This document shows positions 14,601-41,086 of a DNA stretch of 41,600 nt, piece by piece (positions within the stretch are counted from its first letter, which is position 1; each line of letters begins with the position of its first letter). The stretch covers positions 1 to 41,600 of the IMG/VR virus record IMGVR_UViG_3300031787_000278; one strand, written 5' to 3'. Under the pieces are notes generated by a model that was not told where the DNA came from, ran no database searches, and saw only the letters and a program-made list of their open reading frames with translations. Position numbers and translations under genes: made by a program. Source of the DNA: a virus.

Positions 14601-16066
14601 CTGGGGATATGACTTACTTCAACGCAATGAACGAGCAGATCACCGCTGCTACGACTGCGATGAAGGATCAGTTGAAGAAGATGTTAGCTGACGCCAATAT
14701 CATCCAGCAAGAGTTCGTACGTGATGCGTGGGGCAATATCAAGTTTGACCGTGCCGGTCGTCCCCGCGTCAAACAAACAAAGGTAAAAGACCCGCAGCTT
14801 GTCCAAGATTTGGAAGCCCAAATCAATCAAGCTGAAAAGGATCGTGTAGCTATCCTTGAACGACAAATCAAACTCAAGGATGACTATCTTGCCCGACTTA
14901 AGACCGAGAAAGAAGAACTTGAAAAGCAACGTCAAGTACAACAAGATAACCTTGAACGCTATCAAGCTCTGATCGAAGAACTTGGGACCGTTGACCTTGG
15001 CGGCGATCTTGAGGAGTTCAAAAAGAAGTTCCAAGAGCTACGCGGCTTGGGTGGTGCGATCGGTTTGGACCCGTCGGAACAAATTAAAGTGTTCCGTGAA
15101 CTGAACGCCAAGCAACAATTGATGCAGCAACAGCAAGCTCAAGAAGCCGAACAGCAACGTATCAACCAATACAACGCTATCCAACAAGAGTTGCAGAATC
15201 GTATGACTGCGGCTCAAGATGCTTTGCAAACCAACTCAACTCAAGCTCTTGATAAGCAGAACGAAAGTGCAACCGAACTTGGAACAAACATTAAAGGTTT
15301 GGCTGCTTTCCTTCAAAAAGTTAGAGGAGACCTTTGGGCACAAGGTGTCCAGCTTCCGGAGAATCAGACAAAAGAAGGCAGAGATCGCCTGATGAAACAA
15401 TCAGCTGATTTGTCTGAGGCAAATGCAGCATTGAATTTTATCAGCCGACGTTTGGAAGTAGCAATGCAGTCTGGCAGCCAAGAAGAATTGGCACGGGCCA
15501 TGCAGTTTGCAACTTCAACCTTAAAAGGATTTGATCCTATTATCAAATCTTTATACAACGTAGACCAAAAAGCATTTGCTCCTAGTGGGCTGTTAACAGG
15601 TCAAAATGCTAGGAAGATTGTAGACCCCATGTCGGGTCTAGTTGATATCGAATACGCAGGTCAAAGTCTTAAGGGCCTAACTCGTAACATTGAAACGGCT
15701 TTGGCCCTGAACGCAGAAAGCATTGCTCTTCAAGGTAAAGCCGCACAAGCAGCAAGTGACGTTAAGACCTTAAGTGAAACTCTAACAAATGCCATTAAGA
15801 ATCTGCCCACTGACCTTCAAAAACTAATTGATATTAACAATCCAGTCGCAAGTCCGGCTGGGTATCAAACGTCTCAATTGACACAGACCTTAGAAGATTT
15901 GTCCATGAGTATCAAGGGACAAGCGGTCGAAGTATCAATTGGAGACATTTACATCCAGACGCAGGGCACAACGCAACAACAGGCAAACGAAATCATTCAA
16001 GTCATTCAACGCAACATCAGGAACGGAGCACTCAATGTTCAGAATGGGAACGTTCGAAGGCCGTGA
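11696..16066 (+). CDS. Tape measure protein
   Basis: At 1456 residues this is the largest protein here and lies right after the tail assembly chaperone genes, as in siphoviruses. Residues 1-380 are almost wholly helical with repeated Ala/Gln/Lys/Glu heptads, including recurring 'ALSAEAQAMM / TLSAEADQV / GLNAEEQTI' units. Around 395-410 (LQNIVGYGGFFLLFNKLRD) a hydrophobic segment starts the conserved TP901-like core. A second hydrophobic stretch lies near 765-800 (ARGAATLGLSIFVTVLITKFF), possibly inserted in the host membrane during DNA entry. No lytic transglycosylase or peptidase motif was recognised. At about 0.15 nm per residue the tail would be roughly 220 nm long. Confidence 0.93.
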   Translation: MTKSEKFELDAKQAIQELGKLASKFETLNDRVKIVNSTFKALEKARDVQVGKLKEWVAKLKDTERGLYQFTVKLGRLTSALDSTIAHIKSLRNNTQQNNSVLKNATIAQEVITAAITKNWHALSAEAQAWVEKTEEGKRFAEAAKHINDSLTDQARVMRESEAATKKETQAQRILEAVIKQTAVGLNAEEQTILQNMLATIQLAEAKSLLSRQVNKTRRDQEKADRERDAALKKQQAETERQRIIQEIYNRVINNTTAALSAEAQAMMASITATQQLARAKAQLNKQQFGAIDAAEKAAEQQRKNRIAGELFAYAQSGGTTTLSAEADQVRQNIEASKQLAAATKVIEQRMYGKNVALDKQGKLWKQDTLAMLQNSHQLEWVSRRMARFGQILQNIVGYGGFFLLFNKLRDSVKDAEAWAEKVSEIRTISDRAAVSSAEWTKQLEAISSAYGIEFTVAAEAAYAALSDQVTEAGDTFGYLRKQIQLAYTAVGSLDSAVQATNSYLTSFGKSTEYASYANAILFKTVDLGRVRLEEMGTTLGRVNILSDQLGISFMEQQASLTVLSRKGIPFSEAMTLMRNVMQKLIKPTEYTENLLRSWGFTSGEAAVRSLGLIGVIQRFAQQALASGDAAAEFGEIMGRMRAIVGLAGTSQADLNAEMAEFQKSFDSNFDAYEERLKSVDITLKVARESFNNFFVTAFGDPAIRKIADMIQKTDGIKQALQEMKETVRFLIIEAGSLWAALRLVNGGIALYTTYTTAATTATVAQTAATGQARRALMLMSAARGAATLGLSIFVTVLITKFFEAGDAVSRFNAILDDTKTKLLKLQELNLARWQKEVDKNTAAVELRFKSLAETISRVSANLQIKVDNVTKSIKKAWEEVGVTFKFVSRNIGKEIGAALAQADSKIEELSQLIERVQNGMTRDEAKVDGQQGILDIEGDESLSQQDKVDKLKALIKTMEAEADKALAAGDMTYFNAMNEQITAATTAMKDQLKKMLADANIIQQEFVRDAWGNIKFDRAGRPRVKQTKVKDPQLVQDLEAQINQAEKDRVAILERQIKLKDDYLARLKTEKEELEKQRQVQQDNLERYQALIEELGTVDLGGDLEEFKKKFQELRGLGGAIGLDPSEQIKVFRELNAKQQLMQQQQAQEAEQQRINQYNAIQQELQNRMTAAQDALQTNSTQALDKQNESATELGTNIKGLAAFLQKVRGDLWAQGVQLPENQTKEGRDRLMKQSADLSEANAALNFISRRLEVAMQSGSQEELARAMQFATSTLKGFDPIIKSLYNVDQKAFAPSGLLTGQNARKIVDPMSGLVDIEYAGQSLKGLTRNIETALALNAESIALQGKAAQAASDVKTLSETLTNAIKNLPTDLQKLIDINNPVASPAGYQTSQLTQTLEDLSMSIKGQAVEVSIGDIYIQTQGTTQQQANEIIQVIQRNIRNGALNVQNGNVRRP

Positions 16067-16379
16067 CCCAGAGTTCGGTGATAGCACGGAGCTTAACAAT
16101 CAAGATCGTGAAGCACATGGTATCAATGGACCCTTGCGTCAATGGCAGAATGATACACACATCAAGTATCGTGTATTTAACTTTGTATTTGAACCGTTGA
16201 CTCTTACACAGAAAAATACTTTTGTCACGGAATACAATAGTAACAAAGGTAAAGCAGTAGAGTGTGAGATCGAACACTTAAACTTAACGGCTGACTTCGT
16301 GCTCTCCGGTTTGAAAGTTTCAACGTTGAGAGATAATTGTTCCTACCGTATTGAGGTAACATTACAATGTTTGTCTTAA
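16035..16379 (+). CDS. Minor tail protein after the tape measure, 114 aa
   Basis: The ATG at 16035 follows GGAG by 6 bases and overlaps the tape measure end by 32 bases; an upstream start would overlap far more. The protein is beta-rich, with IKYRVFNFVFEPLTLTQ and YRIEVTLQCLS, and resembles the small distal-tail proteins that siphoviruses encode between tape measure and tail tip. It overlaps the next gene by 13 bases. The similar size and strand pattern of the next protein suggest that the two act as a pair in the tail tip. Exact role unknown. Confidence 0.6.
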   Translation: MFRMGTFEGRDPEFGDSTELNNQDREAHGINGPLRQWQNDTHIKYRVFNFVFEPLTLTQKNTFVTEYNSNKGKAVECEIEHLNLTADFVLSGLKVSTLRDNCSYRIEVTLQCLS

Positions 16380-16720
16380 CTGCGGCACCGGACTCTTTAA
16401 CTCTGCCCGATCCCGAACTCCAAGACAAGATGTCTTATGAAGATGAAATAGTCATCAAATACACTGAGGCAGGGACCGTTTATACAACAATAAATAAACG
16501 AGCCACCGTTAGAGAGTATCAATTTATTCTCTCTAAGGCTGAATATGATGATGCAGTAACATTCTTTGAAGTGTTACGTGCCCGGACGGTTACTGTGTCC
16601 GGTTTTGCATCGTTTACGGGTAAGATTGAATATAGCTCCCGTAAAATGTCTGGGCTGAGGCGAGGGGCTGATTGTAACGGCGATGATGTATTCGAACTGA
16701 CACTGGTGTTCTATGCGTAG
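16367..16720 (+). CDS. Minor tail protein, 117 aa
   Basis: Begins MFVLTAAPDSLTLPDPELQD and continues with beta strands (EIVIKYTEAGTVYTTINKRA, YQFILSKAEYDDAVTFFEV) to a C-terminal FELTLVFYA. The gene overlaps both neighbours by 8 to 13 bases. Proteins of this size and pattern between the tape measure and the large tail tip protein usually belong to the distal tail or hub complex. No cysteine cluster (four-Fe-four-S type, as in lambda gpL) is evident; only one Cys is present. The function is inferred from gene order. Confidence 0.58.
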   Translation: MFVLTAAPDSLTLPDPELQDKMSYEDEIVIKYTEAGTVYTTINKRATVREYQFILSKAEYDDAVTFFEVLRARTVTVSGFASFTGKIEYSSRKMSGLRRGADCNGDDVFELTLVFYA

Positions 16721-19523
16721 TATCCCAACTGCCTTGTCGAACTATCTTCAAACTCACCAAGGACTAATTCAACAATTGGTCGTTGATGTGATGTGGGACG
16801 ATGAATGGGTCCGCTATGACAATGATCTTATCGAACTTGGTGAAGTCACTCAACAAGTAACACAGTTCGATAAGACCATCGGTTCAGTATCAGTAACCAT
16901 TATCGCCGAAGGTTTGGACGAAATCCATTACCACAAAGTGCCTGCACGAATTGTTTTCGTGCTTGTTGATACTGGCGAGTTGTTATTTGAAGAAGCAGAA
17001 CTTGTCCTGTTCGAGGGCCAAGTATCATCGCCTTTTGAAATCAAAGACAACAAGCGAGTATCATTCGACATTGTTAGCGAAATCGAAACGATGGAGCTTG
17101 GTTTCTCACCTGACGAGGGCCAACTCGATTTTGTTCCGCGTGAGTTTGCTGACGTTGTATGGCCGCTTGGGTTTGGCTTCATCCAGAAGGCTCCAGCCGT
17201 AAAGGTCAAAGATGCACAGTCTATGATACTGTCCACCAATTTGACTTTGGCTGATCCATCGCTACCGCAAAAGATTGCTGCTGCGTTGGAAGGCTTCTAC
17301 TACGCGATGTACATGTGCCGCTTCTGGCTATCAACTATCCAACTCAATGAGGATAAGGTTGATAATCTTGGAGCAGAGGTCAAGGTATTCTTTCAAGCAT
17401 ACCGTATCAATGTTGTTGAAGTGCAAAACGCAATCAACGACCTCCAACTCAAAACAAATTTACACCAGCAAGACCCCAACAATGTATTCCGCAAGGCGGA
17501 TATGATAACCGCAGAAATCTTTCTGCAAAACACTATCAATACAGCCAATGCAGCCCTAGCTGCTCTTTACACTAAGCTGAACCGTCTCAACCTGCTCATT
17601 GAAAAGAATCGGTACAAACGAGGAGCAACGACTAAGTTTCTTGATGCCTACATGGAAGCAAAGGAAGCTGCCGCTGGGTATCATGAACTGGTTCTCATGT
17701 ATTGCCAACAGTTGCAGTATCAAGACGGACACCAACTCGTTGAGAACAGCGACGACTTCGAGCAGAACGTAGAGTTCGATTTCTTTATCAAAAACGTAAA
17801 GTTTCGCGGTTATGTAGATGGTCGGGACCTCTACATCTCGGAAGGCCCACTCAATACTTACGAGAACGTTCCACTCGACCCATGGACTCCAGATGATGAA
17901 GCAATCTGCGAGCCTGAAAATGAATCCATGAATATGTTCCGTTGCAGCACTAACCTGACCAACCAATATGTATTGGTTAAGGATGTGTATGACGAGTATC
18001 ATATTATCGGAATCACAGGTCAAATTGATAACAAAGTCTACTTTGACCTTGTGCGTTGGGAACAGGATCGCGTCGGCCGGGCCGAACGGTATGATATTGA
18101 TACCGTTGTTGGAACCTTGGTCGAGATGCCCGTAGCCGCTGTCGCTATGAACGCTTTCCCGCCCAATACTATCTTCTCTGGATCGTTCGACCCACAGAAA
18201 TGGAACCGTAAAGAGACTGCGCGGTACCTCCAACTTATCAGCGGACTCACCAATCCAACGCCAGAAGAAAAAGCAACAATGGCGTGGATCGCATGGCTGG
18301 AGCCGTGGGACGCTGTTGATGAAGCAAATCTCTTGATCCAAGTGCCCACTATCCGGGATACTTACACCTTGGTTGGACCTGACATTGCCGAGATTATCGC
18401 CACTAGCGGTATGATGCGGGCAGAATGGTTGGCCAATTATCCTGTGCCCTATGAGGAGATACAGTCGAATTTGTTCTGGCAAGCCGAACCTGGAAGCACA
18501 GTTGTCCAAGGTAACACTTGCCGTATTTATATCGTTAACTGCGTCCCGTCTACAATCTACGGTGTATACGGTTACCGAACAAATAATAACGGCGAACGGT
18601 TCCTTGCTCCAATCCCAAGCCGGTACTATACAAAGCTGGAAAATCACAATCTTGGCTCTATGAACGTTTGTGCCTTGGTATTCAACCAAGAAGTACCCGG
18701 TTACGAAGACGAAGTATTTGTAACATACGAATCGAGCGTAGGACCACGTATCACTGATATTTTGATCTACTTGATTGAGAACTACACCGATAAGACTTGG
18801 GACGTCGAATCGTTCCAAAACCTTGAGGCCAAGTTTCAAGACAAGTACCCCGCCAACTTTGTTCTGTATGACCGTACAGACGTTCTCGAAGAAATGCAAC
18901 GTATCGCACGTGAGGCTCGTTGTCGCCTCTGGATGCGGGACGGCGTATTTTACATCAAGTACCTGTCCGAGCGACCTGTATCGGTTAAAACTATCACCGG
19001 TACAACCATCGTGTCCAACACAACTGTCAAGCAGATGAAGGATACGGAAGAAATCTACACCAAGTATACTGCGATCTGGAAGCCAGATTACTTGCCCGAT
19101 ACCCGCGAACGTAAGATCATTGTCCGCTACAACGTCAAACGGTACGGTATCCGGGAGTATCAAGAAGAATACCACATCTTCAACGAGTACGATTTGGTTC
19201 ATAAGTCTGCCACTTTCTGGGCCATTCGGCACGCAAATACGTTCAAACGGATACAAGTCGAGACAACAATCGACAATTTGGACCTTGAAATCAATGATTC
19301 AATCACGTACAAGGGCCAACTTTGCACTATCATTGGTTGGCAATACAGCAAAAATGGTCTCATTTTGACCTTAGAACTGCCAATTAGACTAGGCGAAACA
19401 GAAGAATACCCGTATTATTGGCCCAGTTCGCTGCCTGCCGATTACGAGTTCCCACCTGCAAACGACGATTATGCTGGTGGTTTCGGTCCTAATAGCAACG
19501 TAACAGGAACAATCCCATGCTAG
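16713..19523 (+). CDS. Large tail tip / hub protein
   Basis: 936 residues. The N-terminus (LIQQLVVDVMWDDEWVRYD, then VTQQVTQFDKTIGSVSVTI) has the strand pattern of a gp27-like hub barrel. A helical section follows at ~180-330, and the C-terminal third (VLEEMQRIAREARCRLWMRDG, then RKIIVRYNVKRYGIREYQ) matches the general form of phage tail-associated hub domains with a split barrel. It follows two minor tail proteins and precedes likely receptor-binding proteins, so it should form the central tip that contacts the tape measure. No peptidase or hydrolase motif is seen. Overlaps are 8 and 7 bases. Confidence 0.72.
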   Translation: MRSIPTALSNYLQTHQGLIQQLVVDVMWDDEWVRYDNDLIELGEVTQQVTQFDKTIGSVSVTIIAEGLDEIHYHKVPARIVFVLVDTGELLFEEAELVLFEGQVSSPFEIKDNKRVSFDIVSEIETMELGFSPDEGQLDFVPREFADVVWPLGFGFIQKAPAVKVKDAQSMILSTNLTLADPSLPQKIAAALEGFYYAMYMCRFWLSTIQLNEDKVDNLGAEVKVFFQAYRINVVEVQNAINDLQLKTNLHQQDPNNVFRKADMITAEIFLQNTINTANAALAALYTKLNRLNLLIEKNRYKRGATTKFLDAYMEAKEAAAGYHELVLMYCQQLQYQDGHQLVENSDDFEQNVEFDFFIKNVKFRGYVDGRDLYISEGPLNTYENVPLDPWTPDDEAICEPENESMNMFRCSTNLTNQYVLVKDVYDEYHIIGITGQIDNKVYFDLVRWEQDRVGRAERYDIDTVVGTLVEMPVAAVAMNAFPPNTIFSGSFDPQKWNRKETARYLQLISGLTNPTPEEKATMAWIAWLEPWDAVDEANLLIQVPTIRDTYTLVGPDIAEIIATSGMMRAEWLANYPVPYEEIQSNLFWQAEPGSTVVQGNTCRIYIVNCVPSTIYGVYGYRTNNNGERFLAPIPSRYYTKLENHNLGSMNVCALVFNQEVPGYEDEVFVTYESSVGPRITDILIYLIENYTDKTWDVESFQNLEAKFQDKYPANFVLYDRTDVLEEMQRIAREARCRLWMRDGVFYIKYLSERPVSVKTITGTTIVSNTTVKQMKDTEEIYTKYTAIWKPDYLPDTRERKIIVRYNVKRYGIREYQEEYHIFNEYDLVHKSATFWAIRHANTFKRIQVETTIDNLDLEINDSITYKGQLCTIIGWQYSKNGLILTLELPIRLGETEEYPYYWPSSLPADYEFPPANDDYAGGFGPNSNVTGTIPC

Positions 19524-26841: not shown

Positions 26842-27861
26842 ATGTCCAATTCTGCGACCGCAGAAGCTCCTGCTATTCAGCAGGAAAGTATCAAGGTTAC
26901 TGGCGACGTGAAGATGATTTCGACTGCCAAGGTTGTGCCGTCGAAGATCGCCCTTCGCGGAGTCAAGGACCAAACCGAGGAGTTCCAAAACCTGCTCAAC
27001 AGTATTCGTCTGCACGGTATCATGAACAGCATCACTGTTCGTGAACTGCCGGATGGTACTTACGGTCTGGTTGACGGTCTGCAACGTTTCACTTGTGCCC
27101 AACGCTTGGGCATGGAAACTGTTCCGGCCCGTATCATGGCGATGGACGATGCTGAGACTTTGAAGGCTCAGATCATCACCAACGTTCACCGCGTCAAGCA
27201 ACGCCCTGCCGAAGTCGCACAACACCTGTTGCGTATCTTGAGCTTGGACCCGCTGCTGACTGTGAACGAACTGGCTCGCCAGATGGCTCAGTCACCAGCG
27301 TGGGTCGAACAGCAACTCGACCTCAACAACCTGTTGCCGGAAGCAAAGGTTGCGGTTGATAACGGTTCGCTGAACCTGAGTTCGGCCTACATGCTCTCAA
27401 AGCTGCCTCTGGACCGCCAGAAGGACGAGTTCGAGAACGCATTGAAGGAACCGTCGCTCCAGTTCGTCGCTCGGATGCGGGAAGTCGTCAAGAAGATTCG
27501 TGACGACAAGAACGCTGGCCGTGATAGCGGCAAGATCGAATGGCGTCCGCCTGTCCACCTGCGTCCTTTCGCTTCCGTCGAGACGGAATACAAGGCGATT
27601 CTGGATGGCAAGGAATCCACCGTCCTCAAGATGCTGGAAGCCGAAGGCGTGAAGGTCACGGAGCAAGTCAAGCAAACCGCTCTCCGCGTTGTTGCTTGGG
27701 CTTTGCACCAAGATACTGCGACCAAGGAAGCTGCTCAAGCCGAGCATGACCGTCGCGTCAAGGCCAAGGAAGCTGAGAAGGCAGCACGTGAAGCTGAAAA
27801 GCAGAAGCAACGTGAAGCCAAGGCAGCCGAAGCCTCGACCTCCAAGACTATCTTCGAGTAG
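26842..27861 (+). CDS. ParB-like DNA-binding protein, first paralog
   Basis: 339 residues, first gene of the rightward arm, with GGAGAA 7 to 12 bases before the ATG. Residues ~30-125 form a ParB/Srx-type N-terminal domain: a 'LLNSIRLHGIMNSITVRELP' strand-helix unit, GLVDGLQRFTCAQRLG in place of the usual GERR box, and ITNVHRVKQRPAEVAQHL in place of ENxQR. A helix-turn-helix follows (TVNELARQMAQSPAWVEQQL). The last ~60 residues are a charged coiled coil. ParB proteins are CTP switches that load on centromere-like DNA, but phage members also act as regulators or nucleases. The altered ENxQR-type motif leaves CTP use uncertain. The adjacent repeat region is a natural binding target. Confidence 0.8.
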   Translation: MSNSATAEAPAIQQESIKVTGDVKMISTAKVVPSKIALRGVKDQTEEFQNLLNSIRLHGIMNSITVRELPDGTYGLVDGLQRFTCAQRLGMETVPARIMAMDDAETLKAQIITNVHRVKQRPAEVAQHLLRILSLDPLLTVNELARQMAQSPAWVEQQLDLNNLLPEAKVAVDNGSLNLSSAYMLSKLPLDRQKDEFENALKEPSLQFVARMREVVKKIRDDKNAGRDSGKIEWRPPVHLRPFASVETEYKAILDGKESTVLKMLEAEGVKVTEQVKQTALRVVAWALHQDTATKEAAQAEHDRRVKAKEAEKAAREAEKQKQREAKAAEASTSKTIFE

Positions 27862-28930: not shown

Positions 28931-30743
28931 GTGGATTGGACAGAAATACTACCGTGATATCGAGTGTACCGTTCGCGGTTCTCGCATCTCGGTCAAGTTC
29001 CCGTATGATAAGTTCCTACTCGATGCGGTCAAGACCTCGTTCGAGGGTCGCACGTGGGACATGGAAAAGAAGGAATGGTCTTTTCCTATCACCCAACGCA
29101 ACTTGTTTCAATTTGAATTGTTGCAAGGGAAATACGGACCAGAGCCAAAGACTAATTGGCCGGTCAACATTGAAATACAGAAAGAGGATATCGACGCGGT
29201 TATTGAAGGTCGCGGTATCACTCTCTACCAGCATCAATACGAAATCATCAGCCACATCCTATTGAAGCGTCAGTTCCTTGTCGCGGCGGATATGGGTCTT
29301 GGCAAAACACTGTGTACTATCGTGGCAATGGAAATTCTTGCCGGTGATAGTAATCCTTACATCTTGTGGGTCGGTCCCAAGGGGCCGTTGACCGCAGCAA
29401 GGTTGGAGTTTGCAAAGTGGCGTAGCCCTTTGCGACCAGAGTTCATGACGTATGATGCGCTTAGGATTGCGTTACAGAGGTGGGACCGACCCACTCCTCA
29501 AATTTTTGTCATGGATGAAATCTCTTGCTGCAAGACGGCGACCTCGCAACGTACCAAGGCTTGCCAGTACGTTGCGGACTCTATGCGTGACGAGAAAGTC
29601 CAGCCCATGATAGTTGGGTTGACTGGTACGCCCTCGCCAAAGACACCTGTTGACTGGTGGGCAGAGGTTGAGATCATTCGTCCCGGTTGGATCACTGAGA
29701 AGTCTCCCCGTGACTTACAGGCCCGTCTTGGCGTGTTGTCGGAGCATGATGATGGGATCACTAAGTTCAAGAAACTTGAAACGTGGAAAGATAGCACAGA
29801 CAAATGCGATATCTGTGGTAAGACGGAGCAGGAACATGCAAACGCCCCTTGGGACTTCAACCATCCGTATGTTGCCGGTTCGGATGAGGTATCAGCGTTT
29901 GGCAAACGGCTCCGTGGTCCGGTTGGAGTCTGGCTCAAGTCCGACTGTCTTGATTTGCCAGAGAAGCGTTACGAATGTATCCAGTTCGAGCCAACACAAG
30001 AAATACTATCATTGGCTCGTACCGTTGTCAACCGTACCAAACGTGCTGCGGATGCACTCATCAAGCTACGTACGCTGTCCGATGGCTTTCTCTATGAAGA
30101 AGTTGAAACGGGGTCCGAACCTTGCACGGAGTGCATCAATGGGCAGGTGAATATCAGCCCAGATGAAATGGGACCGTGTGCCATTTGTTCCGGGTCTGGT
30201 CGTGCCCCAGTTATGACTCGCGTTACTAAGGAGTTCGCTTGTCCTAAGATTGACTTGTTGATACAATTGCTTTCCGAGCATGAGGAAGTTGGTCGCTTGT
30301 GCGTTTATGCAGGCTTCCAAGGTTCTGTGGATCGGATTCAAAAGGTTGGGTTACAACAGGGATGGTCAGTGTTTAAGGCTGATGGTCGTGGGTGGTCATT
30401 CACAACTCACGAAGGCTTGATCCCAATGACTCAAGAAGCGATGGTCGAACGCTTCCAATCAAAGGATGATAGGATCATGTTCGTTGGACAACCGGGTGCA
30501 GCAGGTATGGGTCTCACCCTTACTGCTTCACCTACGACCTATTTCTACTCCAACGACTTCAACCCACAGTCCCGGTTCCAAGCCGAGGATCGTATTCATC
30601 GTATTGGTATGGACGTTATTCGTGGCGGTCGTATCATTGATGTTATTCATCTGCCCTCAGATGAAAAGGTAATTAACAGCCTTGTTAATAGTCGTAATCT
30701 ACAAAGTATCACAATGGACGAATTGAGAGGCTACTATGTATAA
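28884..30743 (+). CDS. SNF2-type SF2 helicase with HARP-like N-terminus
   Basis: 619 residues. GGAG lies about 8 bases before the ATG. Residues ~15-85 resemble a HARP domain (VRGSRISVKFPYDKFLLDAV, then TWDMEKKEWSFPI), known from SMARCAL1 annealing helicases. The motor follows: Q-like YQHQYEI, motif I AADMGLGKT, motif II VMDEIS, motif III GLTGTPSP, motif VI QAEDRIHRIG. Between the lobes are Cys clusters CDICGKTEQEH and CTECINGQ...CAICSGSG, probably zinc sites. Such enzymes rewind or remodel replication forks and displace bound proteins. It is coupled to the second ParB-like gene by an 8-base overlap. Confidence 0.85.
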   Translation: MPSTSTLLRQEKFTVKWIGQKYYRDIECTVRGSRISVKFPYDKFLLDAVKTSFEGRTWDMEKKEWSFPITQRNLFQFELLQGKYGPEPKTNWPVNIEIQKEDIDAVIEGRGITLYQHQYEIISHILLKRQFLVAADMGLGKTLCTIVAMEILAGDSNPYILWVGPKGPLTAARLEFAKWRSPLRPEFMTYDALRIALQRWDRPTPQIFVMDEISCCKTATSQRTKACQYVADSMRDEKVQPMIVGLTGTPSPKTPVDWWAEVEIIRPGWITEKSPRDLQARLGVLSEHDDGITKFKKLETWKDSTDKCDICGKTEQEHANAPWDFNHPYVAGSDEVSAFGKRLRGPVGVWLKSDCLDLPEKRYECIQFEPTQEILSLARTVVNRTKRAADALIKLRTLSDGFLYEEVETGSEPCTECINGQVNISPDEMGPCAICSGSGRAPVMTRVTKEFACPKIDLLIQLLSEHEEVGRLCVYAGFQGSVDRIQKVGLQQGWSVFKADGRGWSFTTHEGLIPMTQEAMVERFQSKDDRIMFVGQPGAAGMGLTLTASPTTYFYSNDFNPQSRFQAEDRIHRIGMDVIRGGRIIDVIHLPSDEKVINSLVNSRNLQSITMDELRGYYV

Positions 30744-31677
30744 GAACGTTCCACTTAACGAAATTTACTTGGACCATGAGTTCAATTGTCGCGGAAGATT
30801 TCTTCCAATTGATTGTGTCGAGTTGGCACGTTCAATACAGGAGATTGGCCTTCAACAACCTATCACGGTACGGGAACTGCGTGCAGAAGCCAGTCCCGGT
30901 CGTGTTGGCGAAGCAGACTTGATAGCCAAGGGCTACAAGTACAAAGTCATCACCGGACACCGACGCTTCACGGCTTGCAAGATCAACAAAGCTGAGACGG
31001 TTGAAGCTAAGATTCTTCCGGCTGATACTTACGATGCAGCTTGCGAGGATGCCAACCTTGTTGAGAACATTCAACGGGCCGACTTGACAATTGAACAAGA
31101 GGCCAAGGCTCTCAAGCGGTACGTCAATCGTGGCGAGTCTGCCCAAGCGATTGCGGATCGGTTGGGTATGTCCAACGGTTGGGTGCGAACCCGTGTGATG
31201 TTGCTCGACTTGCCGGACGAAGTGCAAACGTTGGCAGGGAAAGGCTTCATCAATCAAAATGATATTCGGGAGCTTCATCGCCACCGTGTATCAGACCGAC
31301 GGGTGATCGAACTTGCAGCCAAGTTGAGGGATGCACGTATCAACCACCAGAAGGCCAGTGTTGATCGTCTTGTGAAGAACAAGCCAGTATCAAAGAAAGA
31401 GAAAAAGGAACGTGGTCCTAACGCCGTTTCTGATTTGATGGAACAGGTTCGTTCTCTTTTCTGCTCCATCAACAGGGACATTTCAATCCCTGTCCATGAT
31501 TGGGTATCAGCCGAAGGAAACAGTATCGTGACAGCGGTACTGGCATGGTCAGGAGGATTCATCAACAATGACGAACTTTGGGATCGAATTGAGCAATTTG
31601 GAAGCACTTTCGGTGTACGAGTCGAGCGGCCCGTTTTCGCCGAGGATGAACAGACTGTTGCTGGAATCGCTAGTTAA
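30736..31677 (+). CDS. ParB-like protein, second paralog
   Basis: 313 residues with a more canonical ParB core than the first paralog: LARSIQEIGLQQPITV, then KVITGHRRFTACKINKAETV (the GxRR box) and EDANLVENIQRADLTIEQEA (the ENxQR CTP-binding motif), then a helix-turn-helix SAQAIADRLGMSNGWVRTRV. A Lys-rich linker (VKNKPVSKKEKKERGP) leads to a separate C-terminal domain of ~90 residues ending in ERPVFAEDEQTV. It lies between a remodelling helicase and the DNA polymerase, so a role in DNA replication, organisation or gene control is likely. No ParA ATPase gene is in the window. Confidence 0.83.
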   Translation: MYKNVPLNEIYLDHEFNCRGRFLPIDCVELARSIQEIGLQQPITVRELRAEASPGRVGEADLIAKGYKYKVITGHRRFTACKINKAETVEAKILPADTYDAACEDANLVENIQRADLTIEQEAKALKRYVNRGESAQAIADRLGMSNGWVRTRVMLLDLPDEVQTLAGKGFINQNDIRELHRHRVSDRRVIELAAKLRDARINHQKASVDRLVKNKPVSKKEKKERGPNAVSDLMEQVRSLFCSINRDISIPVHDWVSAEGNSIVTAVLAWSGGFINNDELWDRIEQFGSTFGVRVERPVFAEDEQTVAGIAS

Positions 31678-36282: not shown

Positions 36283-36800
36283 CCAGCGGCAAGTACGTTG
36301 ACCTTGTTGACCCTGACCCGGCTACAATTGATATTGAGAGCATTGGAGCGGCTCTTGGTAAGTTGTGCCGGTTCGGTGGTCACTGTCCACGGTTCTACTC
36401 GGTTGCAGAACATTGTATCCATGCTTCCAAGTTGGCCTTGGATGATGGTTACATGGGCGATGCGTTGCGGGCTGTGTTCCTGCACGATGCAGCGGAAGCG
36501 TATGTTGGAGATATGGTCCGTCCTCTCAAGATGCACATCTCACAGTATCATGAGTTTGAGGCTCGAATCGAAAAGGCCATTGAGGCTCGTTTCAACATTC
36601 AGTTCGAACCGTGGCGAGATATCATCAAGAAGTACGACCAAGAGATGCTGAAAACGGAACGTTACCAAATGTGGCCGTTGGACAAGACCGAATGGGCAGG
36701 TATGGACGGAGCGTATCATGTTGTATTGCTCCGCTACTACCCGCCAAACGAAGCAACGTTTTATTTTGAACAGTTCGCTCAAACATTGAAGATAACATGA
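36243..36800 (+). CDS. HD-domain phosphohydrolase (YfbR/DatZ-like)
   Basis: 185 residues with a complete HD site: YSVAEHC (H57), VFLHDAAEAYVGDM (H81, D82, E85) and a later Asp in WPLDKTEW. It belongs with the YfbR-type nucleotidases and the related phage dATP triphosphohydrolase DatZ. YfbR removes phosphate from deoxynucleoside monophosphates, while DatZ depletes dATP in phages that use 2-aminoadenine; sequence alone does not decide between them. It lies next to a nuclease and a DUF5664-like pyrophosphohydrolase, so it should shape the nucleotide pool. Overlaps are 40 and 4 bases. Confidence 0.82.
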   Translation: MSTFGTHGNCIKVASGKYVDLVDPDPATIDIESIGAALGKLCRFGGHCPRFYSVAEHCIHASKLALDDGYMGDALRAVFLHDAAEAYVGDMVRPLKMHISQYHEFEARIEKAIEARFNIQFEPWRDIIKKYDQEMLKTERYQMWPLDKTEWAGMDGAYHVVLLRYYPPNEATFYFEQFAQTLKIT

Positions 36801-37135
36801 AATACGAAGCAACAGTTCTTGATGTGATTGATGGCGATACGCTTGACGTATTGGTCAATCTCGGCTTTGGAGTCAGTATCAAACAACGAGTCCGCTTGTA
36901 TCAAATTGATGCTCCCGAGTTGAGTTCGGAAGCAGGGAAGAAAGCCCTTGACTATGTTAAGACGTTAGGTCTTGGTCGAGTCCAGCTTGATGTTCCTAGT
37001 GGAGTTCGAGACAAGTACGGTCGTTGCTTAGGTGATGTTTTCTTTCTCTACAACGGAGATTACTACAGCCTTTGCAACATGCTTTTGATAAACGATCACG
37101 CACGTCGTCTTTTATACGGAGAAGAACATGATTGA
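36797..37135 (+). CDS. Staphylococcal nuclease-like (SNase) protein
   Basis: 112 residues: ATVLDVIDGDTLDVLVNLGF carries the first Asp and DGDT motif, KQRVRLYQIDAPE the Arg and Asp of the OB barrel, and DKYGRCLGDVF the second Arg. These are the metal and phosphate contacts of thermonuclease, which cuts DNA and RNA without much specificity. The C-terminal helix region is shorter than in the S. aureus enzyme. No signal peptide is seen, so it acts in the cytoplasm, perhaps to degrade host DNA. It overlaps both neighbours by 4 to 8 bases. Confidence 0.85.
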   Translation: MKYEATVLDVIDGDTLDVLVNLGFGVSIKQRVRLYQIDAPELSSEAGKKALDYVKTLGLGRVQLDVPSGVRDKYGRCLGDVFFLYNGDYYSLCNMLLINDHARRLLYGEEHD

Positions 37136-37568
37136 ACGTGAGATTAGTCAAGAAGAAATTCGAGCTTTGACGTTTGGTTTCAATGATTGGACGAAATACC
37201 GAGTTTTACGTTACAATGATACTCGTCGCGAGGGCGAGCTTGTGGCTGAGTATGATCATTTGTACAATACTTATTGTGCAAACAAACCGAAAACAGAAGT
37301 GCTGGGGACGGCACTACGATGTTTACCGTATGAAGGACTGGTCGAGATCGGGAAAATCTTCGAGGAGGGCCGCAAGAAATATGGCCTTGACAATTGGAAG
37401 AAAGGCATCAATGATACTGCCTACCAAGAAGAACGACTCGAACATGCTTTGCGGCACTTGATGTTGTGGTCGAATGGTGATAGGGCTGAGAACCATCTTG
37501 CAAAGGTGGCTTGGTTCTGTCTCACTCAACTTTACTTTGAGGCACGTAACAATGGGAGCAGTTCTTAA
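37128..37568 (+). CDS. DUF5664 / MazZ-like dNTP pyrophosphohydrolase
   Basis: 146 residues. The core reads IGKIFEEGRKKYGLDNWKKG, then QEERLEHALRHLMLWSNGD and ENHLAKVAWFCLTQLYFE. 'EG..KYG..NW..G' with the helical E-x2-HALRH and H-x3-V-x2 pattern is the DUF5664 signature, a MazG-type family containing MazZ, which converts dGTP or dATP to monophosphates in some 2-aminoadenine phages. Many relatives occur in phages with ordinary DNA, so the pathway cannot be deduced. With the HD enzyme and the MazG-like protein at 21692 this makes three nucleotide hydrolases. Confidence 0.78.
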   Translation: MIEREISQEEIRALTFGFNDWTKYRVLRYNDTRREGELVAEYDHLYNTYCANKPKTEVLGTALRCLPYEGLVEIGKIFEEGRKKYGLDNWKKGINDTAYQEERLEHALRHLMLWSNGDRAENHLAKVAWFCLTQLYFEARNNGSSS

Positions 37569-37644
37569 TGCGGTTATGGCTGTTCTGGTAGCTGGAGCTA
37601 TCGGAGCGATTCTTTACCACCTTTTCGTAGAGGAGGACTTCTAG
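37552..37644 (+). CDS. Tiny membrane protein, 30 aa
   Basis: An ATG at 37552, inside the 3' end of the preceding gene, opens 30 codons that end in TAG overlapping the next GTG (TAGTG). The peptide MGAVLNAVMAVLVAGAIGAI continues with LYHLFVEEDF: a single hydrophobic helix with Gly/Ala faces and an acidic tail. GAGG lies about 10 bases upstream. It resembles the small one-pass peptides found among phage early genes and lysis cassettes. Function unknown; the coupling to a secreted protein suggests an envelope role. Confidence 0.55.
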   Translation: MGAVLNAVMAVLVAGAIGAILYHLFVEEDF

Positions 37645-37937
37645 TGAAAGGTATTGCGTTTTTTGCTTTTTTCGTGTTGGTTTGTATCATGGCCCCCGCA
37701 TCTTTCGCCCAATGTACGGGCGGGAGTTGCGAGTACGCCCGTCAGATGCAGGCCACTGGTGTGTTCAGGCATGACGCCAGCTATCGCGGGGCGGAAGTGA
37801 TCTACTGGAGTAGCGGGACTGCCACCGCTGCACAGGCCCGACGATCATGGATGCGTTCGCCCGCACACAGGCGTTTGCTCCTGACCGGACGTATCAAGAA
37901 CGTTAGTTGCTTCGGCAACTATTGTGTAGGTCGATAA
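37644..37937 (+). CDS. Secreted mini CAP-superfamily-like protein
   Basis: 97 residues from a GTG with GGAGG 7 bases upstream. The first 22 residues form a signal peptide (MKGIAFFAFFVLVCIMAPAS, cleavage likely after SFA). The mature part resembles a shortened CAP/SCP domain: CEYARQMQATGVFRHD (the 'A..m...g...H' helix), GAEVIYWSSG (place of GENI), AARRSWMRSPAHRRLLL-like (W..SPAHR) and a closing NVSCFGNYCVGR. Four cysteines could form disulfides outside the cytoplasm. Known CAP proteins are secreted and bind lipids or other ligands. A strong terminator follows. No lipobox is present. Confidence 0.6.
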   Translation: MKGIAFFAFFVLVCIMAPASFAQCTGGSCEYARQMQATGVFRHDASYRGAEVIYWSSGTATAAQARRSWMRSPAHRRLLLTGRIKNVSCFGNYCVGR

Positions 37938-37945
37938 CTTTACGG

Positions 37946-37983
37946 GCCACGGTTCCGCTTGCGGGGCCGTGGCTTTTTCTTTT
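37946..37983 (+). terminator. Intrinsic terminator
   Basis: GCCACGG (37946-37952) pairs with CCGTGGC (37967-37973); an inner CCGC/GCGG pairing, separated by two T-G steps, can extend the stem. A TTTTTCTTTT run follows. It ends the nucleotide-metabolism and CAP unit. Confidence 0.85.
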
Positions 37984-37993
37984 GGAGTTTAAT

Positions 37994-38401
37994 ATGATAC
38001 TGCTTGTTGATACTGTTTCCATTGGTGCGAAACTTTACAAAAAGTATGATGGTTCTAAGCTCGACTACGGGCGTTTCGTGCAACACGTACGTAGTGTGCA
38101 TGAGGTAGAGGCCATGTTCGCGTACTTCGGTAAACAACCGACTAACAAAAACCTATCATTTGGTTGGCTACTTGACAAAATCGGTTTCGAGTTACTTTAC
38201 GATGTGCCCGATGGTCAGTGGCTTGATGTGTTGCGAAAGTTATTAAATACGAAAAAGGAACTTATCATCGCAACAACGAACTCGGCCAGCAAATTCTGTT
38301 TGAAAGGAAAATCGTTTGAACTTTACACGGTAGGCGATGTGCCTGACCTACGTAGGTTCGCAACTGATACACACGACCTCTCAGAGTTCATTTTGCGATG
38401 A
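37994..38401 (+). CDS. PIN/NYN-like protein, possibly degenerate
   Basis: 135 residues from ATG 37994, with GGAG 6 bases upstream, just after the terminator. The opening MILLVDTVSIGAKLYKKYDG and the KLDYGRFVQHVRS, EAMFAYFGKQPTN and GFELLYDVPDG segments follow the order of NYN/LabA-like PIN nucleases (first Asp, Asn/aromatic region, 'Yyg', Rossmann strand). The later ELIIATTNSASKFCL takes the place of the usual S/GDxDF motif but lacks its acidic residues, so catalysis is doubtful. The role is unknown; RNA binding or decay is possible. Confidence 0.45.
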   Translation: MILLVDTVSIGAKLYKKYDGSKLDYGRFVQHVRSVHEVEAMFAYFGKQPTNKNLSFGWLLDKIGFELLYDVPDGQWLDVLRKLLNTKKELIIATTNSASKFCLKGKSFELYTVGDVPDLRRFATDTHDLSEFILR

Positions 38402-38402
38402 A

Positions 38403-38416
38403 GTATCGTATCATGA
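38403..38416 (+). repeat. GTATCRTATCAT element
   Basis: Begins two bases after the stop of the PIN-like gene and reads GTATCGTATCATGA followed by GAAA. It is identical over 14 bases to the copy at 26749 in the central hub. Confidence 0.5.
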
Positions 38417-38499
38417 GAAAGCTGGATGTCCTATTGTAAATGGCGTGGTCATCTGTTCTATTAACGGACCCGATCGGCAACTGCCGGAAACGGGGACAA

Positions 38500-38513
38500 G
38501 TATCGTATCATGG
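38500..38513 (+). repeat. GTATCRTATCAT element
   Basis: Reads GTATCGTATCATGG followed by GAAAC. It lies just before the AGGAG ribosome site (38519-38523) of the next gene. Confidence 0.5.
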
Positions 38514-38531
38514 GAAACAGGAGCAAGTATC

Positions 38532-38735
38532 ATGGCAAGAGTCGCCATTGACGATGGCAACTGGAGCGAGTATCGTGAAGTTCGTCGCGTGATTGAATAT
38601 CGTGACAATGCAATTTACAGAACTGAGTTTTTGAAATACGTCCGAGCCGACTATCAACCCGGCGAGGATGAGGTAATTTGTCCGCTGCCGACCAGCATGT
38701 TGCTGAACGGGCGAACGATTCTTGTAACTGAGTGA
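38532..38735 (+). CDS. Small hypothetical protein, 67 aa
   Basis: The ATG at 38532 has AGGAG 8 bases upstream; the frame is open further back, but no good start or site lies there. The protein, MARVAIDDGNWSEYREVRRV, is beta-rich (VIEYRDNAIYRTEFLKYVRA) and ends MLLNGRTILVTE. No signal peptide, cysteine cluster or known motif is visible apart from one Cys. It is the first gene after the motif-rich intergenic region, so it may be controlled from there. Function unknown. Confidence 0.55.
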   Translation: MARVAIDDGNWSEYREVRRVIEYRDNAIYRTEFLKYVRADYQPGEDEVICPLPTSMLLNGRTILVTE

Positions 38736-38745
38736 GGACTGTATC

Positions 38746-39129
38746 ATGGATTACTTGAACATTGGCTGCACGCCGCCAGATGAACCCTGCGTTGGGGTTG
38801 GCAACGACGACTATGATAAGGGATCGCGAATCGAGACTCTGGTCTACAAAGATCAGTTGGCTCGTATGTTCCCGGAAGGGCGGTTCACGGTCAAGTCGTT
38901 TCCACACGACTTCGGTGCGTACCGCGAAGTTGTGGCGTACCTGACTGGCGACGAAGCAACTGATAAAGCTGCGTTCGACGCGGAAGGAGGCGGCCCGCTT
39001 GAGTGGGACGAGATTGCTTTGAAAATGTTAGCCGAACGCGGCTATCATAAGTGCGAGTGTCGGTTGTGCGGTATGCAGTTTATTTCGTTGAACGGTTCGA
39101 AAGAAGTTTGTGTTGACTGTGGAGAGTAA
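38746..39129 (+). CDS. Small protein with C-terminal zinc ribbon, 127 aa
   Basis: Starts behind GAGGA (38733-38737) at ATG 38746. The N-terminal part (YLNIGCTPPDEPCVGVGND) contains two Cys; the middle is helical (DQLARMFPEGRF, VVAYLTGDEATDKAAF). The end, CECRLCGMQFISLNGSKEVC-VDCGE, gives C-x-C-x2-C ... C-x2-C and should bind zinc like a small treble clef. It overlaps nothing and is followed after one base by the GHKL-like ATPase. A partner role for that ATPase is possible but not shown. Confidence 0.6.
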   Translation: MDYLNIGCTPPDEPCVGVGNDDYDKGSRIETLVYKDQLARMFPEGRFTVKSFPHDFGAYREVVAYLTGDEATDKAAFDAEGGGPLEWDEIALKMLAERGYHKCECRLCGMQFISLNGSKEVCVDCGE

Positions 39130-39130
39130 C

Positions 39131-40408
39131 ATGTTTATCATGATTGGTAACGAAGGCGTTTGCGACATTGAATCGTTTACCCTTCTTGGTGCGTCCTCTG
39201 CCCGTGGCACGGATGCGATTGGTCAATTCGGTTCCGGTGCCAAGCACGCTATCAACCTGTGCCTCCGCGAAGGTGTGCCGGTTGTTGTGTTCATTGGGAC
39301 CGAGCGTTACGAGTTCACCATGCGGCCACGTATTGTGAATGGTAAGACTTTTAATCAGGTCTACTGCAATGATACTCCCAAGGATTGGGTGGTCGAGTTC
39401 GGTGCATTGGACTGGACCGGCATGGAGCTTGCGTTGCGAGAGTTCATCTCAAACGCAATCGACCAAGTTGGCTGGTCCAAGATGGTCGTGACTACGGAGA
39501 CGGAAGCCGTAGGCGTTGAGGGTCAGACCCGGGTGTACGTCGGTGCTCACCCTGATGCGTTGAAGATGTTTGGTCGCCTTGATACTTACTTCCTCCATGC
39601 ATCCGGCCGGGACAAGGAAACGTTCTTGCCCGGTATATCCGATGTGTTGCGAGTATACCGACGCGGTGTGCTTGTGTTCGAGCAAAAGGTTGGCGTGTGC
39701 CTCGGAGCTTACAACTTTAAGGATATCAAAGTGTCCGAGTGCCGTGTGGCCAAGGCGTCGGACGTATCATGGGAAGTTGGATGCCTGTTGCGGAATGATA
39801 TGGAGTTCTTCCAGACTGTGCTGAAAGCGTACCGACGTGACCTGTGGGAAGCGTGTGACGCATGGTTCCTCAGCGGGAGCGAGGAAGAACAACTGGCCTC
39901 ATTCTACAAAGTCTTTGGTGAAGATGCCGTTCTACTCCAAGGCGACGCGACACATGCAGCAGCGTCCGGCAAGAAGATCATTGATATTGGTTCCTCAATC
40001 GGGTTCCATCTTGCTTCGCGAGTCAAGGTTCCAGTATCATCGGCCTTTGTACCCAAGTATAAAGAGCTGACACAAACTGTATCCGCCCCGTCACCGAAGC
40101 TGATGAAGAAGGTGAAATACTTGTGGCGTATGATCGTCCGCTACAAGATGCATCACGGCAAGGCGTGTCCGCTCGTCTGGTCGTACACTCGGTCGATGAA
40201 AGGCGGGGCACTGGTTCGTGGTTTCTATGATAACGGAGCCATTTTCATCGAGTCCGATTCCGAGGATTTGCAAACGATCCTTGAAGAATTGGCACACCAT
40301 GCGTCCGGTGCGGCGGACGGTACTAGGGATTTCCAAGAATGGATTCTGAAATTCACTTGTAAAATGATGAAGGAGAAGATCGATGGACTGTCTGCAAAGA
40401 GCCTTTGA
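39131..40408 (+). CDS. GHKL-like ATPase with permuted motif order
   Basis: 425 residues from ATG 39131 with GGAG 6 bases upstream. Near the N-terminus lie IGNEG (5-9) and GQFGSGAKHAINL (31-43), similar to glycine-rich ATP-lid boxes, and only afterwards ALREFISNAIDQ (101-112), which matches the GHKL N box with Glu104, Asn108 and Asp111. In Hsp90, gyrase B and MORC the N box comes first, so the order here is permuted. The C-terminus holds LEELAHHASGAADGTRDF (384-401), reminiscent of a metal-binding HExxH-like helix in mirror. I recall similar unnamed ATPases in other phages. Function unknown; overlaps the next gene by 26 bases. Confidence 0.6.
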   Translation: MFIMIGNEGVCDIESFTLLGASSARGTDAIGQFGSGAKHAINLCLREGVPVVVFIGTERYEFTMRPRIVNGKTFNQVYCNDTPKDWVVEFGALDWTGMELALREFISNAIDQVGWSKMVVTTETEAVGVEGQTRVYVGAHPDALKMFGRLDTYFLHASGRDKETFLPGISDVLRVYRRGVLVFEQKVGVCLGAYNFKDIKVSECRVAKASDVSWEVGCLLRNDMEFFQTVLKAYRRDLWEACDAWFLSGSEEEQLASFYKVFGEDAVLLQGDATHAAASGKKIIDIGSSIGFHLASRVKVPVSSAFVPKYKELTQTVSAPSPKLMKKVKYLWRMIVRYKMHHGKACPLVWSYTRSMKGGALVRGFYDNGAIFIESDSEDLQTILEELAHHASGAADGTRDFQEWILKFTCKMMKEKIDGLSAKSL

Positions 40409-40763
40409 GTACGTGTACGACCTGCAACTCGGAGCGTTGGACGGTTGTAACCACTATCAACAGGTGATGGAGCGGTTAGGTGTTCCTATCATTGCTATTG
40501 AGGCCATGCCTCAGTACGATGGTAGGGACTGTTTTGTGGACCCGCACAAGCGGTTCCAAGGTTACTTACAGGGACAAGGAGTGTTAGCAGGGACGATGAA
40601 TGGCAAGTATCATGCGATCGGGTGGCTCGGACCCGGCAAGTGGTACAGTGATGGAAAGGTGCATAACTCGTGGCCGGAGATGGGAATGAAAGTGTTGTAT
40701 GTGATACCGAAGCCCTACGACTTGTTTTTATCGCTGAGCGAGTTGCTCGGCGATACGGACTAG
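40383..40763 (+). CDS. Putative papain-like cysteine protein, 126 aa
   Basis: Starts at ATG 40383 with AAGGAGA about 6 bases upstream, inside the end of the ATPase gene. MDCLQRAFEYVYDLQLG puts a Cys at the beginning of a helix, and GKYHAIGWLGPGKWYSDG supplies a His on a strand and a following Asp, the Cys-His-Asp layout of small papain-like folds such as C39-type or BtrH-like enzymes. No signal peptide is present, so it would act in the cytoplasm. Catalysis is not proven. The 3' end overlaps the next gene by 94 bases. Confidence 0.45.
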   Translation: MDCLQRAFEYVYDLQLGALDGCNHYQQVMERLGVPIIAIEAMPQYDGRDCFVDPHKRFQGYLQGQGVLAGTMNGKYHAIGWLGPGKWYSDGKVHNSWPEMGMKVLYVIPKPYDLFLSLSELLGDTD

Positions 40764-41086
40764 AGCCAAAGTATTGCGAAGCATACGAACTTTACCTCAA
40801 GGGTAAGGGTATGCGTTACGTTGAATCTTGCCTGCATTGGGCGTACAAGACGGACCTGCGTCGTCGTAAGGTCGAGTCTTTGCCCGATGGGGCGTGTGAC
40901 CACCATGATACGGTGGACATTTGGGATGTAATAAGCAAGGTGGCGGACGATCTGGAAGTCCAGATTGTTCGTCACCTTGAGGCGGGGTACACAATGCTTG
41001 AGATCGGTTTGATACTCAACATTGCACCCGCCACGGTACACGGTCGTATTGATTCTTTACGCAAACGATTGGAGAATGAACTATGA
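40670..41086 (+). CDS. Sigma/HTH-like regulatory protein
   Basis: 138 residues from a GTG at 40670 with AAAGG 10 bases upstream; the next candidate start is ATG 40811, which removes the overlap but also a helix (ERVARRYGLEPKYCEAYELY). The C-terminal ~55 residues, DDLEVQIVRHLEAGYTMLEI then GLILNIAPATVHGRIDSLRK, form a helix-turn-helix like sigma factor region 4 or LuxR-type proteins. It is a good candidate for a transcription factor that could read the repeated GTATC elements. No region 2 of sigma is clear. It overlaps the next gene by 4 bases. Confidence 0.6.
   Translation: MAGDGNESVVCDTEALRLVFIAERVARRYGLEPKYCEAYELYLKGKGMRYVESCLHWAYKTDLRRRKVESLPDGACDHHDTVDIWDVISKVADDLEVQIVRHLEAGYTMLEIGLILNIAPATVHGRIDSLRKRLENEL

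Follow-up and report, generated by a model that had tools for sequence, protein, structure and literature searches.

Few molecular switches have been studied as much as the GHKL ATPases (Hsp90, gyrase, MutL, MORC, and histidine kinases), for which the motif order N-G1-G2 is regarded as defining. A 41.6-kb stretch of DNA from an IMG/VR virus record (41,600 nucleotides; hereafter, the window) encodes a protein of 425 amino acids in which these motifs are arranged differently, with the N box behind the glycine boxes. This raises the question of whether the protein is a GHKL ATPase whose chain has been circularly permuted, as the order of the motifs had suggested to an earlier note on this DNA. 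The motif positions given there were confirmed (IGNEG at residues 5-9, GQFGSGAK at 31-38, REFISNAIDQ at 103-112 with E104 and N108, and ELAHH-ASGAAD at 386-396). The open reading frame (Table 1) starts with an ATG at 39131; a longer version would start in frame with a GTG at 39110, and the ATG is favored because relatives of the protein begin at the G1 strand, like the ATG version. The G1-strand region is the present N-terminus of the fold in the window protein, and the N-box cassette comprises the N-box helix LALREFISNAIDQ, which carries E104 and N108, together with the next strand.

Table 1. Features of the putative permuted ATPase gene and of its two adjoining open reading frames in the window
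Feature	Coordinates	Strand	Basis
Upstream ORF, 127 aa, two CxxC pairs (zinc-ribbon-like)	38746..39129	+	ORF call
Putative circularly permuted GHKL ATPase gene	39131..40408	+	ORF, phrog_8203, AF2, Foldseek
G1-strand region, residues 1-10, MFIMIGNEGV; NxG replaces DxGxG	39131..39160	+	N7 is N in 74/85 members, G9 is G in 79/85
Lid and G2 box, residues 20-40, GASSARGTDAIGQFGSGAKHA	39188..39250	+	G20, I30, G31, G34, G36, K38 invariant in 85/85
Relocated N-box cassette, residues 88-124	39392..39502	+	R103, E104, N108, D111 invariant in 85/85; restores collinearity with canonical sisters
Second-domain (transducer-like) strands, residues 173-206	39647..39748	+	E203, R205 invariant in 85/85
C-terminal zincin-like domain, residues 316-418, EELAHHASGAAD	40076..40384	+	Foldseek HtpX, PprI, selecase
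Downstream ORF, 126 aa	40383..40763	+	ORF call

Profile searches for relatives, which the earlier note had proposed as a check, recovered two PHROG families, both labeled 'unknown function'. The window protein matched phrog_8203 with E 2.3e-27 over residues 2-222, and it also matched positions 46-109 of phrog_6077, the G1-G2 part of that family (E 1.4e-7). All 42 sequences of a 42-row alignment of the permuted family also matched phrog_8203. Positions 1-45 of phrog_6077 are missing in front of the window protein, which hints at a rearrangement. In its native order, the protein had no match in Pfam at E < 0.1, none in NCBIfam, and none among PDB sequences. Relatives were found by tblastn and alignment-driven scans in Pseudomonas phages M6 and YuA, Bordetella phages, Pseudomonas phage AH02, and Brevundimonas phages, in the 595-kb phage LR756511 (a full-length relative, 26-29% identical), and in 264 IMG/VR stretches, the top 80 of which were retained. 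Domain order is identical between the window protein and the phrog_8203 proteins of M6 (ORF071), YuA (gp29), Bordetella phage MW2, and the jumbo phage LR756511. Identity to other phrog_8203 proteins is about 20-32%, and the group to which the window protein belongs is nearest the large-phage homologues. A further 20 permuted homologue loci, single-copy or nearly so, lie in bacterial genome contigs (L087-L106) that include Niabella, Deminuibacter, Roseovarius, Aquisalinus, and Pseudomonas canadensis. Members are mostly annotated 'hypothetical protein', because native-order profile searches miss permuted members; a few carry the annotation 'HATPase', 'ATP-binding protein', 'metallopeptidase', or 'RIIA'.

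Conservation was examined in 85 diverse members (Table 1). The ExxxN N box, with its catalytic Glu and Mg-binding Asn, is present in all of them as E104 and N108 and aligns with 'LRELVSNA' of HtpG, and the G2 box GxxGxG(x)K is likewise present together with the lid. The G1 box DxGxG is absent, most members having NxG in its place. With the adenine-contacting Asp of DxGxG replaced by Asn here and in most relatives, the affinity or specificity for nucleotide may differ. All 85 members have the order G1, G2, N, against the GHKL order N, G1, G2, and each has a single N box, located after the glycine boxes. No intermediate with a duplicated N box was found among the 85 members, and none of the 80 loci tested encodes an N-box remnant just upstream of the gene. 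The best named sequence matches of the permuted family are to the sacsin-type ATP-binding domain: eight of 42 members matched the NCBIfam model, with E-values up to 8.6e-4, and one member (L030) matched the sacsin-type Hsp90-like domain (NF047352, PF25794) with E 5.4e-6. Unlike the permuted family, sacsin has the canonical order, and its other domains were not seen here.

The second family, phrog_6077, supplies phage proteins with the canonical order. Those recovered include Moorella phage MTATph1 CDS0173, Vibrio phage 1.121.O gp114, Pseudomonas phage PaMx11 gp71, Pectobacterium phage phiTE_019, pEp_SNUABM_01 gp155, vB_EalM-132 gp137, and others; the sequences P0007 and P0008 are phrog_6077 members, as are the MTATph1, PaMx11, and phiTE_019 proteins and the Vibrio phage 1.158.O 'histidine kinase-like ATPase'. 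Canonical members reach Pfam HATPase_c and HATPase_3 directly, and that of Vibrio 1.158.O exceeds the curated Pfam HATPase cut-off (27.0 versus 25 bits). Like the window protein, phrog_6077 proteins have a G1-lid-G2 block and a second domain ending in an invariant Arg; unlike it, they have the N box at the N-terminus as usual, and most are without the C-terminal zincin-like motif, although MTATph1 and vB_EalM-132 share the zincin-like C-terminus. Their G1 is degenerate in most cases (DDGPG is kept in MTATph1, with SRGG/SYGG-type sequences elsewhere), and their counterpart of the conserved xxE-x-R motif in which the second-domain strands of the window protein end (E203, R205) is LDRDR, with the second-domain Arg retained. 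A profile of the phrog_8203 type aligned with the canonical profile (E 1.4e-27) across 343 columns that start at the G1 strand and reach the zincin-like C-terminus; the N-box piece matched separately, in swapped order (E 1.2e-6). When the N-box cassette was shifted to the front, a single alignment with E 7.4e-35 and a score of 263, versus 211 unmoved, was obtained (E-values from such one-against-one profile comparisons are relative, not database E-values). Shifting seven other blocks of the same size gave scores of 163-205, below the unmoved 211, and with the N-box cassette inserted at or after residue 60 the scores were only 210-217. Since the sister proteins show the canonical order, the departure from N, G1, G2 in the window protein is read as permutation.

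The same relation was seen against cellular GHKL proteins (HtpG, MutL, a MORC-like protein, and TopoVI-B from eight bacterial genomes). Doubling a profile end to end is the usual way of detecting circular permutation. In native order, the profile of the permuted family matched the cellular set in separate pieces only (best E 2.4e-4), whereas a doubled profile of the N domain gave a single alignment across the junction (E 2.3e-6), which begins in the N box of copy one and continues into the glycine boxes of copy two, both for the mixed set and for HtpG. Column-shuffled and reversed control profiles gave 0.06 to 0.8. When ten doubled sequences were scanned with Pfam, one of them, L029, matched HATPase_c, its residues 97-193 aligning with profile positions 8-99 across the junction (E 0.0038).

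Both forms were found at one locus. Phages M6 (Rabinowitzvirinae) and PaMx11 (Bradleyvirinae) belong to one family, Mesyanzhinovviridae, and BLASTP aligned the permuted gp71 of M6 with the canonical gp71 of PaMx11 as two segments in swapped order: residues 8-53 of M6 with 58-104 of PaMx11 (34% identity, E 8e-4) and residues 82-111 with 11-40 (40% identity, E 0.28). The upstream adjoining gene, gp70, is homologous in the two phages (45% identity, E 2.4e-14); its products (L001:5594-5959 and L140:4732-4950) are small putative membrane proteins. Because both forms occupy the same position within one phage family, they are probably interchangeable. In a tree built from the shared blocks, with the N-box cassette left out, 45 permuted and 11 canonical sequences were split by a 100/99 branch that was present in 200 of the 200 bootstrap trees checked. 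As all permuted members fall on one side of the tree, a single permutation event is the simplest reading, after which, again on the simplest reading, the permuted form would have spread and one form would have replaced the other at the M6/PaMx11 locus.

Structure models are in line with a permuted fold. AlphaFold2 gave a pLDDT of 88.3 for the window protein (42-row alignment) and 90.3 for an M6-type relative (L066; 28 rows), and the order of elements in the models (G1 strand, lid, G2 helix, four strands, N-box helix, strand, strand, second domain) fits that expected. Foldseek searches against the PDB returned Hsp90 first for both models in their N-terminal part, with E 7e-3 for the window protein and 7e-4 for the M6-type protein (Hsc82-AMP-PNP in the latter case), TopoVI-B and MutL ranking lower. 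These modest E-values are attributed to the inability of a sequential alignment to follow the permutation. For the second domain, no significant match to the Hsp90 or MutL transducer was obtained with hhalign, and the spot match to the LNxSR motif of HtpG was weak and non-significant (E 0.53). The invariance of E104 and of E203/R205 nonetheless favors a functional ATP cycle, as well as R205 being a second-domain arginine of the Hsp90 type. With the profile comparisons, the canonical-order sister family and its member at the M6/PaMx11 locus, the single-origin tree, and the two models all bearing it out, the protein is very probably a GHKL (Bergerat) ATPase that arose by circular permutation.

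The proposed change can be described with four blocks: the N box and its strand (1), G1 and the lid (2), G2 and its strands (3), and the last strand with the rest of the protein (4). The canonical order 1-2-3-4 would have become 2-3-1-4, placing the N-box helix and strand between the glycine boxes and the final strand of the fold. The ATPase part would then be followed by the second domain with R205 and by a zincin-like domain that in most members is without its first zinc ligand. By analogy with known GHKL proteins, ATP-Mg would be bound by N108, G31/G34/G36, and K38; the lid, at about residues 18-35, would close; R205 would sense the gamma phosphate; and E104 would act as the base for ATP hydrolysis. 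The protein would cycle between open and closed states, probably as a dimer, as in Hsp90, MutL, and MORC, and the zincin-like domain might serve as a binding module. Likeness to Hsp90/HtpG, MutL, MORC, and TopoVI-B extends to the N box, the G2 box, and, judging from the models, the fold. The window protein differs from them in motif order, in having NxG for DxGxG at G1, in its zincin-like C-terminus, and in having no N-terminal arm before the N box.

What the ATPase acts on is suggested by the genes beside its relatives. Their immediate neighbors include genes for exonuclease VIII/DUF3799, YqaJ, RecT, Sak4, DnaB, UvrD-type helicases, SSB, and RadC, and of the five times that the DUF3799-type cluster occurs within eight genes, four are at +1 or -1; the neighborhood is variable, and these are raw counts. 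Because replication and recombination genes are among these neighbors, a role as a switch, clamp, or chaperone for proteins of phage DNA replication or recombination is tentatively favored, at somewhat less than an even chance. The neighbors in the window itself had led the earlier note to suggest a small regulatory or anti-host system. That suggestion was not supported: none of the neighbor genes of the window was found beside relatives, and no partner gene is constant among them. As for the neighbors' identities, the zinc ribbon stands on two CxxC pairs (the upstream ORF has no confident family in Pfam or PHROGs) and a helix-turn-helix protein (40670-41086) on a weak match below the Pfam cut-off (GerE, E 0.0025), but the 'papain-like' label for the downstream ORF found no support, no family being matched in Pfam or PHROGs. 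The downstream ORF overlaps the ATPase gene by 26 nt, and translational coupling of the two is possible.

The main rival to a role in DNA replication or recombination is that the protein, like RIIA, guards the phage against host exclusion or defense rather than acting in DNA metabolism. RIIA is a phage GHKL protein that has been discussed as a counter-defense factor (PMC7824862). The label 'RIIA lysis inhibitor' is attached to two canonical-order relatives, the de-permuted profile matches T4 rIIA (score 39.6, E 2.3e-4), and in M6 and PaMx11 the gene for the small putative membrane protein precedes the ATPase gene. However, the T4 rIIA match is limited to the N box through G2 and is not above that to cellular HtpG (score 46), T4 RIIA has the canonical order, a length of 725 aa, and an unrelated C-terminal part, no rIIB-like partner came to notice in the regions that were read, and the relatives adjoin replication and recombination genes. 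Membership in the T4 RIIA family itself (phrog_612) was rejected, since the window protein is unmatched and only one of 42 members matches, with E 0.016. In a search with PADLOC defense models, the window protein was likewise unmatched, and two single weak matches were obtained among the 42 members. Protection of the RIIA kind is considered unlikely.

The C-terminal domain raises another alternative, namely that the protein is a SprT/Wss1/selecase-like metallopeptidase under ATP control, breaking down proteins and perhaps doing so on DNA. A zincin-like fold is indeed supported by Foldseek (HtpX and PprI for the window model; selecase with prob 1.0 for the M6-type model), and the domain shares with minimal zincins (selecase/abylysin, SprT-like, Wss1 WLM, DUF6782) the arrangement of helix, strands, HExxH-type helix, and helix. 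There is also a weak Wss1 alignment across the HExxH position (E 0.47), and the C-domain of MTATph1 matches the DUF6782 metallopeptidase family (E 3e-4). Both canonical members in which the domain is kept, MTATph1 (HETLHKYSGARD) and vB_EalM-132 (HETIHRVTGAND), have HExxH...D, which is also retained by two permuted members, L064 and L072 (HELDHHISGYSD and HEYEHHISGYDD). The HExxH motif requires two His ligands and a catalytic Glu, and the window protein instead reads EELAH, with Glu (E385) at the first His position and E386 and H389 kept; the conserved Asp (D396) lies seven residues past the His, an unusual spacing for a third ligand. The first histidine is Glu in 72 of the 85 permuted members and His in only two, and about 17 of the 85 are without an intact motif or domain, while the ATPase residues never vary. 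Such loss beside invariant ATPase residues indicates that peptidase action is not the conserved function of the family. Because its first HExxH histidine is Glu, an active peptidase is doubtful in the window protein, although peptidase action may survive in a few members, and the metallopeptidase reading as a whole is improbable. Of the possible metal site that had been proposed from the sequence, the zincin-like domain thus stands, but the first histidine is replaced here and in most permuted relatives; E385, H389, and D396 could form an altered site. To judge from these motifs, the domain is a zincin in decay, the ancestor likely having had an intact motif whose first ligand was lost inside the permuted branch.

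A very improbable reading is that the protein pairs, as a B-subunit-like component, with a phage TopoVI-A-like topoisomerase (phrog_6247), the two forming a topoisomerase from separate parts. Close relatives (L011, L013, L016, and L047) have a phrog_6247-type 'DNA topoisomerase' gene nearby and TopoVI-B is among the Foldseek matches, but no TopoVI-B-type transducer match was found, and the gene occurs in only five of 50 ATPase records, many of which are fragments; an obligate partner was rejected on that count. Near the permuted ATPase gene, TopoVI-A-like genes lacking an obvious B subunit were seen at L011:4560-5453, L016:3542-4444, and L047:4839-5738. That the motifs arose by chance within an unrelated protein is hardly credible and, despite the lack of Pfam, NCBIfam, and PDB sequence matches in native order, is in practice refuted by the sister-family profile comparison and the direct Pfam HATPase matches of canonical-order homologues, alongside the eight sacsin-type matches, the motifs invariant in 85 members, and the Hsp90 Foldseek matches.

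The window has other features of its own. Counted over both strands of the whole window, the hexamer GTATCA is present 130 times, versus 16.7 occurrences expected from dinucleotides, and is densest at 15601-18200 and 36401-39000, with the flank preference aGTATCA(A/T); GTATCATG alone occurs 18 times versus 1.3 expected, and several occurrences overlap start codons. Candidate explanations for the word are a binding site of a phage DNA-binding protein, a Chi-like word, or some other function. Two separate ParB-type genes lie at 26842-27861 and 30736-31677 (ParB_N 5.9e-15; ParB_N/KorB/HTH_ParB), and a ParB-type protein is a possible reader of the word. The early region also encodes a staphylococcal-nuclease-like protein at 36797-37135 (SNase 2.5e-5).

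The GHKL superfamily and both PHROG families, as unnamed clusters, are already known; the permuted variant is new. Searches of open-access full text turned up no account of a permuted GHKL protein; a paper on HEPN uses the term for HEPN only. Hundreds of permuted members with a single origin, and canonical sisters, one of them sharing gene position and phage family with a permuted member, provide a before-and-after case of circular permutation within a very conserved enzyme fold, and in the zincin-like domain a metal site has been lost stepwise inside one family. ATP-dependent dimerization in Hsp90, GyrB, and MutL uses an N-terminal arm. Whether this is a natural permuted GHKL family, fixed once, spread over many tailed phages, and still running an ATP cycle without that arm, is evenly balanced. 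If so, with no arm before the N box, a different way of coupling ATP to dimer closure would be needed, and the replacement of one form by the other at a single locus would allow what the permutation costs to be measured. The family thereby makes it possible to test directly, for each part of the ATP cycle (the N-terminal arm, the lid, and dimer closure), whether it depends on chain connectivity.
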